In this document: piece by piece, positions 1,333-33,221 of the stretch
Numbering within the stretch: the stretch's first letter is position 1
Layout of the letters: every line of letters starts with the position of its first letter
Virus record (IMG/VR): IMGVR_UViG_3300032242_002951
Coordinates: 1 to 33,221 of that record
Origin: a virus
DNA length: 33,221 bases
Strand: one strand, 5' to 3'
Program-made: the position numbers and the translations under genes
The notes under the pieces: model-generated
The model's database searches: none
Told to the model about the DNA's origin: nothing
Seen by the model: the letters and a program-made list of their open reading frames with translations, nothing else

Positions 1333-1496
1333 TTTGTTTTTCCTTTTGTAGGCATCTTACGGCCTTGCTTTTTTGCTACTTCACGACGCTCGGTCAGGGC
1401 AATTGCAATGGCCTGCTTTTGTGGGCGTCCGGCTGCCATCTCTCGTTTGATGTTTTTGCCTACGGCCTTTTTGCTACTCGATTTAATCAATGGCAT
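1329..1496 (-). CDS. Short basic MPLIKS-type phage protein (55 aa)
   Basis: The translation starts MPLIKSSSKKAVGKNIKREM and goes on with AAGRPQKQAIAIALTERR, ending in a Lys-rich tail. I recognise this 'PL(I/V)KS-SKKA...GKPQKQA(I/V)AIAL' pattern as a recurrent short protein of environmental tailed phages, without a proven function. The predicted basic helices suggest nucleic-acid binding. The start is supported by ACAAGGAACCAATATG (AAGGA about 8 nt upstream), and the stop overlaps the next ATG as ATGA. A CTAAATA promoter-like heptamer ends 17 nt before the start. It is below common ORF-length cut-offs, so automated calls may miss it. Confidence 0.83.
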   Translation of the reverse strand: MPLIKSSSKKAVGKNIKREMAAGRPQKQAIAIALTERREVAKKQGRKMPTKGKTK

Positions 1497-1512
1497 ATTG
1501 GTTCCTTGTATA

Positions 1513-1869
1513 TTATTTAGCTTTGTCAGTCAAAGCCGCCAGTTTAGCCAGGGCTTCTTGGAATGCCGCTTGCTTTTGTTCTACCAATTCAGGAGCTTCA
1601 TTTATGTCCATCTGCACACGGTCACTCAAGACCTTGCCCAAGAACATACGCTCATACTCTACACGCAGTTTGGTATTGTTTTCTTCTATGGTGCGGTTGT
1701 AGCCATCGGCCAAGAGTTCTTCAAATGGTCGACCTGAACGGTCTTCTATAGCATCAAGCAGTGTGCGAGCCGTGATCAAGGCAGTGGATCCTTTGGGACG
1801 ACCCGCACCTGCACGAGCACCACCGCGTGAGCTGATTTTCTGTTTTGTTGAAACCTTTTCCGTTGTCAT
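1513..1869 (-). CDS. Probable terminase small subunit (118 aa)
   Basis: The N-terminus carries SSRGGARAGAGRPKGS (about residues 13-28), the Gly/Arg 'GARxGAGRPKG' signature that opens many phage terminase small subunits and contains an AT-hook-like GRP core. After it come helix-forming segments and a long C-terminal amphipathic helix (VEQKQAAFQEALAKLAALT) suited to oligomerisation. Size fits the family (about 100-180 aa). TerS recognises the packaging site and loads DNA onto TerL. It is unusual that TerL lies about 3 kb further along, separated by small genes and the circle junction. The 87-aa protein directly before TerL is the competing TerS candidate. A CATAAATA motif ends 5 nt before the ATG and there is no ribosome-binding site, suggesting a leaderless mRNA. 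Confidence 0.62.
   Translation of the reverse strand: MTTEKVSTKQKISSRGGARAGAGRPKGSTALITARTLLDAIEDRSGRPFEELLADGYNRTIEENNTKLRVEYERMFLGKVLSDRVQMDINEAPELVEQKQAAFQEALAKLAALTDKAK
1514..1520 (-). promoter_or_regulatory. CTAAATA late-promoter-like motif before the 55-aa gene
   Basis: Minus-strand CTAAATA overlaps the TAA stop of the TerS-like gene and ends 17 nt before the ATG of the 55-aa gene, with an AAGGA ribosome-binding site between them. If used like a T4 late -10 element, the mRNA would have a leader of about 12 nt. Confidence 0.45.
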
Positions 1870-1874
1870 ACGGA

Positions 1875-1881
1875 TATTTAT
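1875..1881 (-). promoter_or_regulatory. ATAAATA motif 5 nt before the TerS-like ATG
   Basis: On the minus strand the order is CATAAATA, TCCGT, ATG. For a T4-type late element covering -13 to -6, +1 would be the A of the ATG. No Shine-Dalgarno sequence is visible, which fits leaderless translation. Confidence 0.5.
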
Positions 1882-1882
1882 G

Positions 1883-1993
1883 TTATTTGCCTTGTGCCGG
1901 TGGATAAGGGCTGGGATTTAGGGGACTTGGATTGGGTACAGTGCGACGATTGGGCATACGCACAGGCCCCGGTCCTGATGTGAATTGATTCAT
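1883..1993 (-). CDS. Pro-rich micro-protein (36 aa)
   Basis: The product begins MNQFTSGPGPVRMPNRR and is Pro/Asn/Ser-rich to its end (PSPLNPSPYPPAQGK). It is probably unstructured. The case for translation is its start: TAAGGAGAATGCAATG gives one of the best Shine-Dalgarno sites in the window (AAGGAG), and the ATG overlaps the stop of the 84-aa gene as ATGA. Function is unknown. Its Pro-rich nature recalls the disordered 104- and 140-aa proteins of the same operon. Confidence 0.62.
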   Translation of the reverse strand: MNQFTSGPGPVRMPNRRTVPNPSPLNPSPYPPAQGK

Positions 1994-2244
1994 TGCATTC
2001 TCCTTATGGTATATGCGGTGGTCTTAAACATTCGATTCAGCTTGTCGGCTAGATTCTGTGCGTGTGCGGCTGAATTGAATGTGTTGCGAGGATAACGCCT
2101 GCGGTCCTGTAACCAGTGCTGTTTGATTATGTAGATTGGGCGTTCATAACGAACCACGCACCAGCTTTCAGGTGCTTCAGCTATGGTCCATTCATAATCA
2201 CCTATTTGTAGGCTTTCTAACACATCAGGTGCGGGTCTACTCAT
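1990..2244 (-). CDS. Hypothetical protein (84 aa)
   Basis: I choose the internal ATG, giving MSRPAPDVLESL at the start, because the longer reading frame only opens with a TTG in unlikely sequence. The product has a probable beta-rich N-terminal half (YEWTIAEAPESWCVVRYE) and a C-terminal helix (FNSAAHAQNLADKLNRMF). No membrane segment or catalytic motif is visible and I do not recognise a family. TTAAATA ends 8 nt before the ATG and no ribosome-binding site is present, as with other candidate leaderless genes here. It overlaps the next gene by ATGA. Confidence 0.68.
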   Translation of the reverse strand: MSRPAPDVLESLQIGDYEWTIAEAPESWCVVRYERPIYIIKQHWLQDRRRYPRNTFNSAAHAQNLADKLNRMFKTTAYTIRRMQ

Positions 2245-2252
2245 TGTGTAGC

Positions 2253-2259
2253 TATTTAA
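2253..2259 (-). promoter_or_regulatory. TTAAATA motif before the 84-aa gene
   Basis: The heptamer ends 8 nt before the ATG, slightly further than the 5-6 nt seen elsewhere. A direct repeat of TACACAA (minus strand) flanks it. It is a weaker member of the TAAATA set. Confidence 0.33.
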
Positions 2260-2335
2260 CCAGGTTGTGTAAATACTGGTCAAATGCCTGCCACACGAAT
2301 CCAAACTGTAACCCGACGCCGACAGGTGTACCTAT

Positions 2336-2524
2336 TCAAATCGGGTGGGTGGCACTTGATGGGTGAGCGTGATTACTTGTATCCTGTGACTGCTGTAGAA
2401 TTCGTTCGTGCCTGGCCTGTTCTCTTACAAAAGCGTCTACAATCATCAATTCCGCGTCCATAGTGCCCAGGGTTTCGTACAAGCGTCTCATATGGATCTG
2501 TAGTCTAAGTTGTTCAAAATTCAT
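2336..2524 (-). CDS. Hypothetical helical protein (62 aa)
   Basis: The start is the ATG that overlaps the stop of the upstream exported peptide as ATGA. A longer in-frame extension would run through that gene and is unlikely. The product (MNFEQLRLQIHMRRLYETLG...) is mainly one or two charged helices followed by a His/Ser/Pro-rich tail (NHAHPSSATHPI). No family is recognised. It is probably translated by coupling, since the upstream sequence has only a weak GATGG. Second gene of the leftward operon. Confidence 0.58.
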   Translation of the reverse strand: MNFEQLRLQIHMRRLYETLGTMDAELMIVDAFVREQARHERILQQSQDTSNHAHPSSATHPI

Positions 2525-2658
2525 TGGCACACCATCACAGTGGTTCCACCTGGTTGCACAATGGGAAAACAAAGCGGATATCCTGGTCCGGGCACATAGA
2601 CCTGTGCTTGTGCTAGGGTGCTGGTGACGACAAAGGCTAGGGCGCTGGCTAATTTCAT
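2521..2658 (-). CDS. Exported micro-protein with signal peptide (45 aa)
   Basis: The translation begins MKLASALAFVVTSTLAQAQ: one Lys, a hydrophobic core, then an A-Q-A type signal peptidase I site at about residue 18. The mature part would be only about 27 residues, Pro/Gly/Val-rich (VYVPGPGYPLCFPIV), with two Cys that could form a disulphide in the periplasm. No lipobox Cys follows the cleavage site, so it is not a lipoprotein spanin. The start has AAGGA about 8 nt upstream (TAAGGAATACCAAATG) and the stop overlaps the next ATG. It is the first gene after a near-consensus sigma70 promoter, so it should be among the earliest expressed. A role in superinfection exclusion or envelope modification is conceivable but unproven. 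Confidence 0.72.
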   Translation of the reverse strand: MKLASALAFVVTSTLAQAQVYVPGPGYPLCFPIVQPGGTTVMVCQ

Positions 2659-2687
2659 TTGGTATTCCTTATTTGTTTGTTTAACAA

Positions 2688-2721
2688 GTTATAGTATAAC
2701 AGCCTGGTCTTTTTGTGTCAA
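2688..2721 (-). promoter_or_regulatory. Near-consensus sigma70 promoter with palindrome over the -10
   Basis: On the minus strand TTGACA (2716-2721) is followed by exactly 17 nt and TATACT (2693-2698), giving a start near 2686 and a leader of about 28 nt before the 45-aa gene. A 13-base palindrome, GTTATA-G-TATAAC (2688-2700), covers the -10 box, and TTGTT-T-AACAA (2677-2687) follows, so a repressor could control it. This is the strongest host-type promoter I see for the leftward unit. Confidence 0.75.
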
Positions 2722-2724
2722 GCC

Positions 2725-2731
2725 TTAAATA
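2725..2731 (+). promoter_or_regulatory. TTAAATA motif 5 nt before the 94-aa ATG
   Basis: TTAAATA, CTCGT, ATG on the plus strand has the same 5-nt spacing seen at minus-strand genes. No -35 box and no ribosome-binding site are visible, fitting a T4-late-like element that gives a leaderless mRNA. It sits back-to-back with the leftward sigma70 promoter. Confidence 0.43.
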
Positions 2732-2736
2732 CTCGT

Positions 2737-3021
2737 ATGATTGTGGTTAATTTACAACAGTTGGGTCCGGTTCCGCACCGTTTTTGTAGTGCGGAAGAGC
2801 TGGCCTGTGTGCTTGAGACTGCTGAAGAAATCCTATCAGGTACTGCGACCGACACAATGACCGAAATCTTGACGGAATGGGAAACTGCCCTAACTTGGGA
2901 TTCAATATCGGCAGAACCTGTCACAGAAGAATGGTACTATCGTGCGTTACTGGTAACTTGTATACGCGGATTAAGGGGAGAAATGCGCCCTAACTTTTAT
3001 ACTATTCCGCACAAGGACTAA
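2737..3021 (+). CDS. Hypothetical protein (94 aa)
   Basis: The start is the ATG (MIVVNLQQLGPVPHRF); the longer frame begins with TTG inside the divergent promoter. The product is acidic (CSAEELACVLETAEEIL, DTMTEILTEWETAL), mostly helical and has four Cys spread along it, with no membrane segment. I do not recognise a family. It is the only gene between the divergent promoters and the structured non-coding stretch, and it stands alone on the plus strand. Its stop codon lies inside the next CTAAATA motif. Being isolated in a control region, it could be a regulator, but no DNA-binding motif is visible. Confidence 0.66.
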   Translation: MIVVNLQQLGPVPHRFCSAEELACVLETAEEILSGTATDTMTEILTEWETALTWDSISAEPVTEEWYYRALLVTCIRGLRGEMRPNFYTIPHKD

Positions 3022-3024
3022 ATA
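3018..3024 (+). promoter_or_regulatory. CTAAATA motif at the head of the structured RNA
   Basis: CTAAATA overlaps the stop codon of the 94-aa gene. With T4-late spacing the transcript would begin at about 3030, the second base of a perfect 12-bp stem. No protein-coding start follows for about 700 bases, so its product would be non-coding. Confidence 0.45.
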
Positions 3025-3028
3025 TTTT

Positions 3029-3114
3029 TGTAGGGAACAGCGACATCCTAAACAGTGGATGTTGATTTGTGCGTGGTCATAACGCTATCCTTTTTTTTAA
3101 TTCTGTTCCCTACA
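3029..3114 (+). ncRNA. Candidate structured non-coding RNA (three-way junction)
   Basis: Bases 3029-3040 (TGTAGGGAACAG) pair perfectly with 3103-3114 (CTGTTCCCTACA). Inside, 3041-3048 pairs with 3057-3064 (8 bp, one G-U, 8-nt loop) directly stacked on the closing stem. A smaller 4-bp hairpin with a 7-nt loop follows (3071-3074/3082-3085), then a run of eight T. No ORF of note crosses it on either strand. A CTAAATA motif ends 5 nt upstream and a strong terminator lies about 50 nt downstream, giving an RNA of about 170 nt. It is not a tRNA: the stem is too long and there is no T-loop. The T-run inside the junction could also cause internal termination. Confidence 0.5.
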
Positions 3115-3165
3115 TCCGCCTTTCTGTAAATTTAAGTCTCCAACTTCAAATCAAAAACGGCAAAC

Positions 3166-3203
3166 AAACCCCCTAGTTCTTAAGCCAGCTAGGGGGTTTT
3201 TCT
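3166..3203 (+). terminator. Strong rho-independent terminator
   Basis: An 11-bp stem AAACCCCCTAG / CTAGGGGGTTT (3166-3176 and 3189-3199) closes a 12-nt loop and runs into TTTTTCTTT. It would end transcription coming from the 94-aa gene and the structured RNA. The minus strand also reads into GGTTTGTTTG, so it may work both ways. Confidence 0.88.
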
Positions 3204-3688
3204 TTGGATATTTTAGACTTGTCATATATAATAGTGGAGATTTAGTAGTAAGTTGTATTACAGAAAAGGTTGGCACGCCGAATATCTATTGTGCTGGAGA
3301 ATCTTGTGGAGCATACTGAGGCCTCGCACAGCATCCAAATCGCTTGTATCTGTCAAGCGGCTTTTGCACACTACAATAATGTAGCCTAAAATCGTATCCT
3401 GGTAATGCGGGTGTCGGGTTTGTGCGATCGGAATGGTATGGGATATATCAAAGTCACTATGAGAACAACGAACCGCTGAGAGTTCTCTTAAAAATCGCTG
3501 TAGGTATGGTAAGGGCAGAACCAAAGTGATTATCCAAATAAAACACCTACCGGTATGTTGATACTGCTTGCATAAGCGGTATTGTGGCCATAGGATCTAA
3601 CATCTAAACAACTGCTTGGATATAAAACGAAATGAGCTTGCGAAATTGAAGTTTTATATACGAAGCATATCAAATGAGCAAAGCGAGT
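3204..3688. other. Non-coding stretch rich in inverted repeats
   Basis: No convincing gene is present in about 480 bases. Hairpins or dyads are seen at CGCTTG/CAAGCG (3341-3346/3354-3359, 7-nt loop), GAGAAC/GTTCTC (3461-3466/3482-3487), ATACTGCTT/AAGCGGTAT (3561-3569/3574-3582, one G-U, 4-nt loop), ATATAAAAC/GTTTTATAT (3620-3628/3651-3659) and ATATCAAA/TTTGATAT (3667-3674/3688-3695). ACTGCTTG also occurs twice (3563, 3611). It may be a replication origin, a packaging site or a long regulatory leader. Origin function is attractive because no other candidate region of this size lacks genes, but no iteron array is clear. Confidence 0.5.
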
Positions 3689-3717
3689 TTGATATTTTAT
3701 ATTGATTGCTGTATACT
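3689..3717 (+). promoter_or_regulatory. Near-consensus sigma70 promoter giving a leaderless mRNA
   Basis: TTGATA (3689-3694), 17 nt, then TATACT (3712-3717). The expected start, 6-8 nt downstream, falls at 3724-3725, where the ATG of the 102-aa gene begins. An inverted repeat ATATCAAA/TTTGATAT (3667-3674/3688-3695) overlaps the -35 box and could be an operator. This should drive the rightward operon. Confidence 0.72.
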
Positions 3718-3724
3718 ATCTATT

Positions 3725-4033
3725 ATGAACTTACCTGAATTAATAGAAAACTTGAGTTTAGATCTTGATCAATTAAATCCTGTTGTAATTAATAGAGAAA
3801 TTATATCCAATTATTCTAATAGAGATCTTATTCGTTTAGCAGAAATATTTCTAAGAGGAATTGGCAAACAACATTCTGTAACGGGCCAAGTAATAGAAAC
3901 ACTATGGGGTATTGGTGATTATTATCAAGAACATCGCGAACTTACTCCCAAACAACAAGTATATCTAATACAAAATATCTTACAAAATTGGCATCAAGTT
4001 GGTATCGAAATGCGAGCCTGTTTAGGTTTATAG
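3725..4033 (+). CDS. Hypothetical helical protein, first gene of the rightward operon (102 aa)
   Basis: I choose the ATG at the predicted transcription start (MNLPELIENLSLDLDQL). An in-frame ATG 51 bases earlier lies upstream of the -10 and -35 boxes and would not be transcribed from this promoter. The product looks all-helical, with Leu/Ile heptad-like spacing (YLIQNILQNWHQVGIEM near the C-terminus), and has no membrane segment. The gene is clearly more AT-rich than its neighbours (many AAT, TTA and ATA codons), which suggests separate acquisition. First-gene position and a strong host-type promoter suggest an early host-takeover or regulatory role. No family is recognised. Confidence 0.75.
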   Translation: MNLPELIENLSLDLDQLNPVVINREIISNYSNRDLIRLAEIFLRGIGKQHSVTGQVIETLWGIGDYYQEHRELTPKQQVYLIQNILQNWHQVGIEMRACLGL

Positions 4034-4063
4034 CGATAAATTACACATAATTGAATCATTTAG

Positions 4064-4070
4064 CTAAATA
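4064..4070 (+). promoter_or_regulatory. CTAAATA motif before the 140-aa gene
   Basis: CTAAATA lies in the 62-nt gap after the 102-aa gene and ends 25 nt before the next ATG, with AAGGAAA between them. It overlaps a small dyad (TTTAGCTAAA). It may give the rest of the rightward operon a second promoter. Confidence 0.42.
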
Positions 4071-4095
4071 AAACATAGAACAAGGAAAGCATAGT

Positions 4096-4518
4096 ATGGC
4101 CCGACAATTTCAATATACCAGTAGGAAAGAAATGGAACCTAGACCCGGAGTTCGTTTCGCTACTGTCTACTACAAACAAACACAAACCGAATACAATCGT
4201 TTACGAGCACATATCTATTCAGTGGCCGCTGACATAATGGCACGCTGTGATAGTGACCTGGATACCTATCGTTGGTGGACTACACCTCTTAAAGGCTATA
4301 AAAAAACCACAGGTATGAACTACACACCCAGTGAAATAGTGACCGATATGGTTGAACAGTTTGTAAAACAAAAGGACTTGCCCTCAGGCCTACTGGGTCG
4401 TTGGCAGCGATTGTTTGAGGGCACTGACTGGGATATTGAATTGGTCACAGGTGTTCCTGCAAGGCCTACCCAATATGGACAGTTATTTGAATCAGGAAAC
4501 AATTATGCGCAAGAATAG
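4096..4518 (+). CDS. Hypothetical protein (140 aa)
   Basis: The protein starts MARQFQYTSRKEMEPRPGV; the ATG is preceded by ACAAGGAAAGCATAGT, a good ribosome-binding site. It is soluble and rich in Tyr, Trp and Arg (RWWTTPLKGYKKTTGMNYTP, LLGRWQRLFEGTDWDIEL), composition often seen in nucleic-acid-binding phage proteins. No catalytic signature is visible and I do not recognise a family. It overlaps the next gene by 14 bases. With no replication gene elsewhere, this is one of the few proteins large enough to hide a divergent initiator or transcription factor, but that is speculation. Confidence 0.8.
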   Translation: MARQFQYTSRKEMEPRPGVRFATVYYKQTQTEYNRLRAHIYSVAADIMARCDSDLDTYRWWTTPLKGYKKTTGMNYTPSEIVTDMVEQFVKQKDLPSGLLGRWQRLFEGTDWDIELVTGVPARPTQYGQLFESGNNYAQE

Positions 4519-4933
4519 ATTTGGTCGTACAGGGCCTAGACCCGGCACAGGACGCCCAGGGCCGCGTCCCGAAATGTGGGTCACAGGAACAGATCCTGAA
4601 GAACATCATCGTTACAGAGTATTTGTACAACAGCGAAATCAAGCACAATGGCGCGAAGAAGGATGGTCAATCACATTTGAAGTCTGGAAAGATCTCTGGG
4701 CCAAATCAGGTGTTTGGCTAAATCGCGGGCGTGAGCGTGGTGACTACTGTATGACTAGAATTGATTGGAGCCTGCCTTGGAGCTTGGACAATGTACAGAT
4801 CATTACCCGTCAAGAACACGCTAGACTACAAGGCGCGGCTGTGGCTTTGGGCTGGCGCAGTATAGCACAAAAGCGTCGACGCAGTCAATTGGGATTGCCA
4901 GCCCAACCCAAAACAGCACGAAAGATCAAATGA
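4505..4933 (+). CDS. HNH/homing-endonuclease-related protein, apparently without the nuclease core (142 aa)
   Basis: The start is the ATG preceded by CAGGAAACAATT (MRKNRFGRTGPRPGTGRP); the longer frame opens inside the upstream gene. After a basic Gly/Pro/Arg-rich N-terminus comes a Trp-rich middle (WREEGWSITFEVWKDLW). Then comes YCMTRIDWSLPWSLDNVQI (about residues 80-98) and ITRQEHARLQ. That pattern matches the 'L-RID...GY-x-x-NV...EQ-R' segment that follows the catalytic site in many phage HNH and AP2-type endonucleases. The H-N-H residues themselves are not evident, so it is a diverged, inactive or DNA-binding-only relative. The tail is very basic (QKRRRSQLG...KTARKIK). It overlaps the next gene by ATGA. 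Confidence 0.7.
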   Translation: MRKNRFGRTGPRPGTGRPGPRPEMWVTGTDPEEHHRYRVFVQQRNQAQWREEGWSITFEVWKDLWAKSGVWLNRGRERGDYCMTRIDWSLPWSLDNVQIITRQEHARLQGAAVALGWRSIAQKRRRSQLGLPAQPKTARKIK

Positions 4934-5619
4934 AAACTGCCAAAGATACCAGCTTATCTCAATATGCACACACCGAATCAGATCCTTGGCGTTGGCGTCC
5001 AGCCGCCGGTCCTGACACAGAAGCAATCACAGCAATGGCTCAGAGTCATTTTGGCCTAGAAACAGATGCGATATTTCAAAATGACACAGTGGAATACAGT
5101 AGAAATGTGTTGTTGGCCACTGTGAATCAATTTTATAATCCTCGAAAAGAACTGCTCAGTGTAGCAACGCACACAGAAACAGGGCAGTTGTTGGCCTATA
5201 CCTGGGCTATGCGTGGACAGTATGCTCCGTGGTCAACCGAAGAAATGGTTGCCATTCGCATAGCACACTGCAATATGAAATTGAGTAGTAGAGGTCGTAT
5301 ACACCTGTTGGCGCAGATGATTCGTATGTGGGAAACCTGGGCCCGTGCTTGTGATATTAAGATTATATGCAGTAGCACGGTGCGTGGCGATCAGGCGGCC
5401 TTTATGCACCTACACCAGCGAGCTGGTTACAGTGTGCGTGGATCAATTGCCTACAAACGCTTGAATACCGCAACCTTTGAGGTAGAAGGGTCGGTCAATA
5501 CTAACATTGTGGCTGACAGTAGATATACACCAGGACCTTATCAGGATCCACCCGAAGTGGTCATAGTAGCAACCGGAGCCGCTCCTACAATGGAAATTTA
5601 TCGGGGACGAACTGAATGA
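4930..5619 (+). CDS. GNAT-like acetyltransferase family protein (229 aa)
   Basis: The middle part has the order expected for a GNAT fold. There is a beta strand with LLAYTWAMRG, a long helix preceded by Arg-rich SSRGRIHLLAQMIRMWETWA (about residues 117-136), a strand DIKIICSSTVRGDQ, then AFMHLHQRAGYSVRGSIAYKR (about 156-176), which matches the family's 'F...L...GY...G' end. The classical Q/R-x-x-G-x-G/A pyrophosphate loop is degenerate (SSRGRIH), so acetyl-CoA binding is not certain. The C-terminal 45 residues lie beyond the fold. GNAT relatives in phages may modify host proteins or DNA-linked amines; the substrate here is unknown. It overlaps both neighbours by ATGA. Confidence 0.66.
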   Translation: MKTAKDTSLSQYAHTESDPWRWRPAAGPDTEAITAMAQSHFGLETDAIFQNDTVEYSRNVLLATVNQFYNPRKELLSVATHTETGQLLAYTWAMRGQYAPWSTEEMVAIRIAHCNMKLSSRGRIHLLAQMIRMWETWARACDIKIICSSTVRGDQAAFMHLHQRAGYSVRGSIAYKRLNTATFEVEGSVNTNIVADSRYTPGPYQDPPEVVIVATGAAPTMEIYRGRTE

Positions 5620-5795
5620 TCAGTCTAACCGTAGATCAGTGGATTAATATTTGTGAAGAGTATCTTGATGATTCTGCAGGTGCTGTGGATGTACCAGATT
5701 TTGATGTCACAATAGATGACAGTGTAGTATTAACTTTTAACACACCCAAAGAAGAAACATTTTTTAGATTACGATTTTTAAAGGAAACACAATGA
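5616..5795 (+). CDS. Small acidic hypothetical protein (59 aa)
   Basis: The protein begins MISLTVDQWINICEEYLDDS and is strongly acidic in its centre (VDVPDFDVTIDDSVV), ending EETFFRLRFLKETQ. The open frame is exactly framed by an ATGA overlap with the upstream GNAT-like gene and another with the downstream GroES-like gene, the pattern of this operon, which is strong support that it is real. No family is recognised. Acidic small phage proteins of this kind are often DNA mimics or inhibitors, but nothing specific supports that here. The frame is short and easily missed. Confidence 0.8.
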   Translation: MISLTVDQWINICEEYLDDSAGAVDVPDFDVTIDDSVVLTFNTPKEETFFRLRFLKETQ

Positions 5796-6046
5796 TAGCA
5801 ACACGCAATAGAGTTATAGTTAAAAAAGTCCAACCTGCAATGACCACACAGGGTGGCATTATCCTACGCTCAAGTACAGAATCGCCTAGAGTTGTTGCTG
5901 TTAGTGTTGGCCCTCAAGCCACACAAATTAAACCCGGCGATGAATTGGTTGTGGATTGGTCGCGTGTGGGACGCTTTGAATACTTAGAGCAGGAATATTT
6001 TATTGTAGAAGAAACCAATATTCTTGCTAGAGTTGACCCGACATAA
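5792..6046 (+). CDS. GroES-like co-chaperonin (84 aa)
   Basis: The GroES order is clear: N-terminal strand MIATRNRVIVKKVQP, the mobile-loop segment with GGIIL (about residues 22-26, the GGIVL-type contact to GroEL), VVAVSVGPQ, IKPGDELVVDWSRVG, and the closing EYFIVEETNILARVD. At 84 aa it is shorter than bacterial GroES (about 97). The roof loop between VGPQ and KPGD is cut to a few residues, as in viral homologues that form a wider or domeless cage. It should cap the host GroEL chamber to help fold phage proteins such as the capsid, as T4 gp31 does. AAAGGAAACACA precedes the ATG, and the gene overlaps the upstream one by ATGA. Last gene of the rightward operon. Confidence 0.92.
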   Translation: MIATRNRVIVKKVQPAMTTQGGIILRSSTESPRVVAVSVGPQATQIKPGDELVVDWSRVGRFEYLEQEYFIVEETNILARVDPT

Positions 6047-6142: not shown

Positions 6143-6429
6143 ACTAGGCCACCCAAAACGCCGGTTAGTACAACAATCGTAAATCCAGCCCATTTCAAAT
6201 AAGTTGTCTGTGTGCTGGATTTTAGGTTTGTTACTGATTCTTTGATTTCATTACACAAGACTGTGACTTGATCAAGTCTATGATCCACTTCATCAAATTT
6301 CAAAATCAATTGATTATAGCGTTGTGCGCAAAGATCTGTGTGCAATTTAAGATTGGTACTTTCACCTTCTATTGATTCAATCACGGTCAATTCTGTCACG
6401 ATTATTCCAAGGTTGATCGGAGCATCCAA
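6127..6429 (-). CDS. XhlA-like single-span membrane protein, candidate lysis accessory protein (100 aa)
   Basis: A charged, probably coiled-coil region (YNQLILKFDEVDHRLDQVTV... to about residue 70) is followed by one C-terminal membrane span (WAGFTIVVLTGVLGGLVG, about residues 80-97) and a short RLI tail. This is the layout of XhlA-type holin or hemolysin accessory proteins of about 85-100 aa. No second membrane protein and no stand-alone endolysin are found, so it is the only visible lysis candidate. The ATG used here overlaps the Dps-like gene by 28 bases. A GTG 30 bases later, with GGAA just upstream, is an equally plausible start (90 aa). Last gene of the leftward unit. Confidence 0.68.
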   Translation of the reverse strand: MDAPINLGIIVTELTVIESIEGESTNLKLHTDLCAQRYNQLILKFDEVDHRLDQVTVLCNEIKESVTNLKSSTQTTYLKWAGFTIVVLTGVLGGLVGRLI

Positions 6430-6836
6430 GCAAACTTCTTGTGCTGGCGTATACGGTCTTGAGCAAAGTTACCAATATCTTCATTGTTTTCTTCATCAGC
6501 AATTTCCTCTAAACGACGATATGATTCAATCATATGTTCTTGACCAGCCAGGACCAGTTCAATTAGGTCGGTCCATTCGGAACCTGCAGCCTGTTCATCC
6601 TCCAGGTCAGCCAGGCTTAAAATTTCACCAATGGTTTCAGGAGCAAAAGCACCCAAAGCACGGATCAATTCACCTAGATCATCTTGAATACTTTCTGAAT
6701 CTTCGTAGATCTTTTGTAGCAATTTGTGTAGGCTATAAAATTGTTTGCCAACAATGTTAAAATGGCAACTGTGTGCTCTGTAGCTGTTAACAAAATTGTC
6801 ACTGTATGTTTCTAGTAATTGATCTAAGGTTGTCAT
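6402..6836 (-). CDS. Dps-like ferritin (144 aa)
   Basis: The first helices carry the Dps ferroxidase pattern with exact spacing. H25 lies in AHSCHFNIVG, H37 in FYSLHKLL (+12), D52 and E56 in QDDLGELI (+15, +4), matching E. coli Dps H51, H63, D78 and E82. Even the residue after the first His (Trp in E. coli) is aromatic (F26). The position equivalent to D67 is Gln. Length (144 aa) and the all-helical pattern fit a four-helix ferritin subunit. Dps dodecamers oxidise and store iron and protect DNA from hydroxyl radicals. There is no extended Lys-rich N-terminal tail, so direct DNA binding is doubtful. The gene sits one base after the 226-aa virion-type gene with no ribosome-binding site (TAATATG), suggesting coupled late expression. 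Confidence 0.85.
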   Translation of the reverse strand: MTTLDQLLETYSDNFVNSYRAHSCHFNIVGKQFYSLHKLLQKIYEDSESIQDDLGELIRALGAFAPETIGEILSLADLEDEQAAGSEWTDLIELVLAGQEHMIESYRRLEEIADEENNEDIGNFAQDRIRQHKKFAWMLRSTLE

Positions 6837-33098: not shown

Positions 33099-33221
33099 AT
33101 ACTACAAACTTGAGGATCCGATCCTCAAGTGGTGTTACTGGTATTTATTAACCGCGAGTCTTTGGCATCTTATACTTGCCGGGCAAGTTGGCGCCATCCG
33201 CTGTGGAGTTACGCCGGATGC
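33099..33221. repeat. Direct terminal repeat, right copy (with partial 104-aa gene)
   Basis: Identical to the first 123 bases. It includes the palindrome (33108-33130), the ATAAATA motif (33142-33148) and the last 24 codons of the 104-aa gene on the minus strand, cut by the contig end. It should not be counted as a second gene. Confidence 0.97.

Follow-up and report, generated by a model that had tools for sequence, protein, structure and literature searches.

Two adjacent phage RNA genes are predicted to pair as a two-piece RNA complex

Two adjacent RNA genes of a freshwater bacterial virus, here called RNA-1 and RNA-2, probably act together as an RNA complex in two pieces that is expressed late in infection. 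As judged from sequence comparison, they look like a real two-RNA system rather than a product of chance, because the tail of RNA-1 matches the start of RNA-2 and because relatives of RNA-2 occur in many uncultured phages.

Results

Phage and gene setting

The window, meaning the whole stretch of DNA that was analysed, is an IMG/VR virus record of 33,221 bases. Profile matches of the portal (7.8e-52) and capsid (8.4e-32) identified the phage as SU10/phiEco32-like, and its large terminase matched Terminase_6N (5.7e-16). Nearly all window genes are transcribed leftward. A short block (2737-6046) runs rightward, with a 94-aa gene, both RNAs, several unknown genes, and acetyltransferase-like and GroES-like genes. 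The last of these is a co-chaperonin gene at 5792-6046 (+; Pfam Cpn10, 8.2e-08), and a Ferritin/Dps-like phage gene was seen at 6402-6836 (-; Pfam Ferritin, 1e-18). ARAGORN detected neither tRNA nor tmRNA in the window. In relatives, some 6 kb separate the 94-aa gene from the portal, so the ends of the window probably adjoin in a circular or circularly permuted genome; the stretches concerned are 1-60 and 33160-33221, and the record is classed linear.

RNA-1 is a structured non-coding RNA

Judged by its conservation, RNA-1 is a real non-coding RNA gene of the phage, with the following features.

3018-3024, + strand: promoter-like motif CTAAATA, 4 nt before the stem; exact TAAATA in 9/9 genomes
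About 3029-3203, + strand: RNA-1 as a whole, ~175 nt, comprising head, tail and terminator
3029-3114, + strand: folded head, with a stem, two hairpins and single-stranded UAUCCUUUUUU
3029-3040/3103-3114, + strand: 12-bp closing stem of the predicted fold
3041-3048/3057-3064, + strand: 8-bp inner hairpin stacked on the closing stem, loop UAAACAGU
3071-3074/3082-3085, + strand: small 4-bp hairpin of the predicted fold, 7-nt loop GGUCAUA
3118-3142, + strand: tail (linker), complementary to the RNA-2 5' leader by cofold, swap test and genome-wide rank
3166-3203, + strand: rho-independent terminator, 13-bp stem 3166-3178/3187-3199, then TTCTTT

A preliminary description of this DNA had proposed a non-coding phage RNA equipped with a promoter motif and terminator of its own, and the proposal is borne out by the motif, fold and terminator being kept in relatives. 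The individual elements that it had named, namely the CTAAATA motif, the 12-bp stem with the stacked 8-bp hairpin and the 4-bp hairpin with its 7-nt loop, and a strong rho-independent terminator, were all located at the positions listed above; the terminator has a 13-bp stem and a U-rich tail. It was also correct that no reading frame explains RNA-1: the + strand ORF at 2737-3021 ends upstream of it, and no ORF of at least 50 aa covers 3029-3203 in the window. The suggested comparison of folding energy with dinucleotide shuffles gave -60.0 kcal/mol for 3025-3205 versus -33.7 +/- 3.7 for the shuffles (z -7.05, 0/200 as low), and the 94-nt fold without the terminator was likewise lower than all shuffles (z -5.37, 0/200). 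The preliminary description had further argued that a perfect 12-bp pair at this distance, together with well-placed start and stop signals, was unlikely to arise by chance. As regards the repeat this was overstated, since the window contains two perfect 12-bp inverted repeats with a span of at most 130 (shuffles: mean 0.49, max 4); the repeat is not remarkable alone, and relatives were therefore needed to decide.

An RNA-1-type locus was found in nine genomes: the window, L084 (G003), L111 (G018), L113 (G016), L123, L085 (G004), L112 (G005) and the more distantly related phages L010 and L042. L036 has another candidate at its end. Both TAAATA and the terminator are kept in 9/9 of these genomes. 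The full fold is kept in only five, window included, which are metagenomic contigs related to each other. These five were compared by hand, RNAalifold having been unusable on seven RNA-1 sequences, whose stem is misaligned by MAFFT. All three helices showed changes on both sides with pairing retained, at pairs 4, 6, 8, 9, 11 and 12 of the outer stem, pairs 1-4 and 6 of the inner hairpin and pairs 3-4 of the small hairpin, while the loops UAAACAGU and GGUCAUA are nearly constant; folded singly, the five members gave z values of -2.7 to -5.4. The covariation check is thus positive, and because the fold is conserved with compensatory changes in relatives, chance is ruled out for RNA-1.

The other loci differ in instructive ways. 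The stems of L010 and L042 are unrelated in sequence to window RNA-1, yet both show the same design of TAAATA, a long closing stem (14 bp in L010, 9 bp in L042), two inner hairpins, a pyrimidine-rich single strand and a terminator. In L085 and L112 the three-way junction is gone, and only a short remnant stem is left, together with the tail and terminator. At the terminator position, all relatives have a hairpin followed by a T-run, with differing stem sequences. An exact 11-bp stem pattern matched no further contig, which shows that the sequence of the stem is not what is conserved, and DNA similarity searches with RNA-1 in deposited phages returned chance matches only, mostly terminator-like. 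The Rfam search that the preliminary description had suggested yielded no family for RNA-1: cmscan against Rfam 15 (4227 families) gave no gathering-level match in the window, and the best matches in a permissive scan of 2650-4100 had E values of 0.9 or worse. Two weak ones, Phe_leader (E 0.9) and ncr1175 (E 1.4), were driven by the terminator and rejected.

A TAAATA-type motif precedes both RNAs and virion genes

TAAATA occurs at most 45 nt upstream of 8 of the 35 window genes versus 0.52 expected from motif density, and is for this reason probably a phage promoter. It lies just upstream of the (-) gene starts at 1496, 1869, 10831, 15494, 25224 and 30323 (portal) and of the (+) gene starts at 2737 and 4096; from its position, we infer that it belongs to a late promoter class. 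Like T4-type late promoters (TATAAATA), it has TAAATA as its core, a short way ahead of the start site; unlike the phages that carry those, the window phage is SU10/phiEco32-like, and no sigma factor that would read TAAATA was recognised among the window proteins tested. Among the nine genomes, the near variants of the motif before RNA-2 are TAAGTA, TATATA and TATAATA, and GTGGAGA or an equivalent then follows. A sigma-70-like TGGATA-16-TATAAT at 3205-3232 also precedes RNA-2.

RNA-2 is a large pseudoknotted RNA supported by covariation

The 500 bases downstream of the RNA-1 terminator are strongly conserved and contain no rightward reading frame. They encode the second candidate RNA.

3222-3232, + strand: ATATATAATAG, promoter-like motif before RNA-2; 9/9 genomes have TAAATA or a near variant here
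3233-3610 (3' end approximate), + strand: RNA-2, a large pseudoknotted non-coding RNA of ~375 nt, identified by covariation
3235-3270, + strand: RNA-2 5' leader pairing with the RNA-1 tail (GUGGAGAUUUAG...UUACAGAAAAGGUU), by duplex, rank and cofold
3272-3276/3291-3295 (3272-3295), + strand: helix P1, 98% of cells paired, two-sided changes at 5/5 pairs
3364-3370/3421-3427 (3364-3427), + strand: long-range helix P4, 99.3% of cells paired, two-sided changes at 6/7 pairs
3452-3554, + strand: pseudoknotted core with helices A, P6, B and C and invariant CTTAAAA-TC and AGGT
3452-3458/3525-3531, + strand: helix A of the core
3461-3466/3482-3487, + strand: helix P6 of the core
3500-3505/3545-3550, + strand: helix B of the core (GUAGGU/ACCUAC)
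3472-3475/3551-3554, + strand: helix C of the core

Across 20 sequences, two-sided changes were present at 35 of the 47 pairs in 9 helices, which were picked after inspection of the data. For these pairs, 85.2% of cells were paired versus 67.0% in shuffled and 27-45% in slid controls, and the covariation score was 0.532 versus 0.191 +/- 0.013 shuffled (0/500) and 0.05-0.15 slid. Helices A, C and P8 pair less (62%, 48% and 67%), mostly through alignment register. Unsupervised column covariation in 31 sequences recovered the same helices, with P4 as the top signal. Because of two crossings, of A by helix B and of P6 by helix C, the predicted core is pseudoknotted. Folding energy gave no significant signal for RNA-2 by itself (z +1.06), and the proposed structure is based on covariation, not energy. 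Model R1 scored window RNA-2 at 5.2e-16, the window having been in its training set. The RNA-2 variants of L010 and L042 share the family 5' domain and have a different 3' half, and RNA-2 thus seems modular. Directly after RNA-2, tandem perfect hairpins were observed (window 3620-3720, L085 3870-3925, L111 1140-1190), often ATTGAGC..GCTCAAT then AGATCTC..GAGATCT, kept in position and changing in sequence; they could be the 3' end of RNA-2, a processing site or a DNA element.

RNA-2 is widespread among viral contigs

RNA-2 has the conserved blocks CTTAAAA-TC, AGGT and GAGCC. A pattern taken from its most conserved block was found in 42 stretches of IMG/VR viral contigs (L122-L164; contigs up to 372 kb), essentially all of which are the same RNA as judged by the surrounding conserved blocks. 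The pattern also matched at four places in bacterial genomes; the remaining conserved blocks were missing there, and we dismissed these matches as chance. In L132 (2967-3366), L135 (13250-13649) and L150 (4127-4526), a permuted tmRNA gene is found a few hundred bases away from RNA-2, and seven more stretches (L136, L138, L144, L149, L153, L160, L164) have one at a distance of up to about 2 kb; where both occur, they are separate neighbours. Seven tRNA genes lie near RNA-2 in L131. The tmRNA adjacency may mean that RNA-2 is functionally tied to translation or to the rescue of ribosomes.

Database comparisons gave no counterpart. Rfam 15 (cmscan) produced no gathering-level match at the RNA-2 position in 14 RNA-2 loci, three different members used as queries for DNA similarity had no match in 50,697 deposited phage records, and model R1 had none in MW202484, the closest deposited phage (portal 43%). 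In phages of other lineages, RNA-2 occurs without a visible RNA-1, and so does not universally need it.

The RNA-1 tail is complementary to the RNA-2 leader

The RNA-1 tail (about 3118-3142) is complementary to the leader that makes up roughly the first 40 nt of RNA-2 (about 3235-3270). Several lines of evidence support this pairing. First, tail-leader duplexes between partners from the same genome sum to -178.4 kcal/mol over seven genomes, a value reached by 9/5040 permutations, and with whole RNA-1 sequences from nine genomes the own-pair sum was reached by 0.5% of 200,000 permutations; because the genomes are related, these swap tests are non-independent samples. Second, when 60-base stretches of both strands were ranked in the available genome pieces of seven genomes (1433-4415 sites each), the RNA-2 leader ranked 3 of 4415 in the window and 1, 5, 2, 1, 1 and 1 in the others. 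Third, unguided cofolding of full RNA-1 with full RNA-2 gave the tail-leader duplex in 4/4 genomes, with 14-23 pairs (23 intermolecular pairs in the window), and left the RNA-1 head and terminator intact in all four; the energy gain ranged from -2.7 to -13.7 kcal/mol, smallest in L111 (-2.7). Lastly, the two strands change together, with CUGU/ACAG in the window, CUAC/GUAG in L112 and UCUAUCG/CGAUAGA in L123, and the pairing persists in L085 and L112 despite the lost three-way junction. Separately, a short and invariant match between an RNA-1 loop and RNA-2 was seen (e.g., UCAUA with UAUGA).

Alternative explanations

The two RNAs could instead be one long RNA, of which RNA-1 is the 5' domain, with the terminator either mostly read through or serving as a structural hairpin inside the tail-leader helix. 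When 3029-3300 is folded in one piece, this helix forms around the terminator hairpin equally well, and covariation is the same for pairing in cis and in trans, so that a read-through transcript would be served equally. We consider this reading unlikely but credible. It is disfavoured only because all relatives have a U-run after the hairpin, including those with an unrelated stem sequence, and because a TAAATA-like motif stands between terminator and leader in 9/9 genomes; a purely structural hairpin would need neither.

The preliminary description had offered a regulator, a packaging RNA or a decoy as roles for RNA-1. The first survives only in the sense that RNA-1 would be a base-pairing partner of the adjacent RNA-2, which that description had missed. 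As an antisense-type regulator, RNA-1 would pair with the leader to block RNA-2 folding or mark it for cleavage, setting the amount of active RNA-2. The tail-leader pairing itself is what such a regulator would show, and in L085 it extends into the GGTTGGC with which RNA-2's first helix begins; in the window and most relatives, however, it stops before P1 and the RNA-2 fold is predicted to survive, and the two RNAs share motif type, direction and probably timing. We regard regulation of this kind as somewhat less probable still than a single long RNA.

An element acting at the DNA level, either a cruciform or a mobile element with 12-bp terminal inverted repeats, would account for the perfect 12-bp repeat and for the head missing as a unit in L085 and L112, but is very improbable given that the inner helices co-vary around constant loops and that directional signals (promoter motif, U-run) are conserved. 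For the decoy role, we found no supporting evidence. In phi29, packaging RNAs are joined into a ring by a complementary loop pair; RNA-1 resembles them in length (~175 nt) and in its three-way junction, but a packaging role is scarcely credible, as RNA-1 has no Rfam match of any kind, its loops UAAACAGU and GGUCAUA are by direct reading not complementary, the phage has a Terminase_6N large terminase with an SU10-type portal and capsid rather than a phi29-type motor, and some relatives have kept the tail but not the head.

Discussion

The favoured two-RNA reading can be laid out as a series of steps. RNA-1 would be made from a phage TAAATA-type promoter, whose motif is shared with the portal and other virion genes, and would end at its own terminator; its 5' part would fold as a rigid three-way junction, while the 3' tail before the terminator would stay free. 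RNA-2 would be made from a second such promoter and fold into a large pseudoknotted RNA. The RNA-1 tail would then hybridise with the single-stranded RNA-2 leader over 14-23 bp, reaching as far as RNA-2's first helix, and the joined RNAs would form one bipartite particle late in infection, with RNA-1 as a capping or docking subunit of RNA-2. Both folds, the kept motif and terminator and the co-varying pairing are seen in the sequences; we infer separate transcripts, pairing in trans within the cell and late timing. A fuller version, in which a widespread RNA-2 and, in one lineage, a separately transcribed RNA-1 dedicated to it constitute a phage machine, docked by a co-evolving 14-23 bp duplex and made late with the virion genes, is offered more tentatively.

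Some likenesses to known systems bear on function. Two-piece (permuted) tmRNA consists of two RNA pieces held by base pairing, as proposed here for RNA-1 and RNA-2, and several phages have a permuted tmRNA gene close to RNA-2; unlike tmRNA, no tRNA-like domain or tag reading frame was found in the window by ARAGORN. GOLLD is a large phage RNA of unknown function, often encoded near tRNA genes, whose level rises during lysis (PMC12286853). RNA-2 is similar to GOLLD (RF02032) in anatomy and setting, being large, elaborate, phage-coded and metagenomic, but is about half the length, and the GOLLD model gave no match at RNA-2 loci in nine phages. A true GOLLD is present in one of the nine, L169 (G052, a 300-kb contig), at 292345-292808 (1.1e-55), with RNA-2 elsewhere in the same genome. 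ROOL, a large phage or prophage RNA near tRNA islands, has several pseudoknots and no known function (PMC12286853). RNA-2 is likewise large, phage-borne and pseudoknotted, but no Rfam match was obtained at its loci, permissive filters included; the two are set apart here by Rfam models. ROOL, OLE, HEARO and all other Rfam 15 families had no covariance-model match at RNA-2. Given the tmRNA and tRNA gene neighbours and the parallel with GOLLD and ROOL, our most likely guess is that RNA-2 has its role at the ribosome or serves as a scaffold RNA.

RNA-2 is large and phage-borne, with pseudoknots and a covariation-supported structure, as in large ornate phage RNAs. It thus appears to be a further family of these RNAs, although a published description in subscription journals or preprints may have been missed. 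GOLLD and ROOL are among the biggest folded RNAs without a known job, and RNA-2 would join them. Its RNA-1 partner provides a handle that the other families lack, a specific predicted pairing between two molecules, which mutation can break and then restore, and the role of such RNAs would therefore be directly testable.
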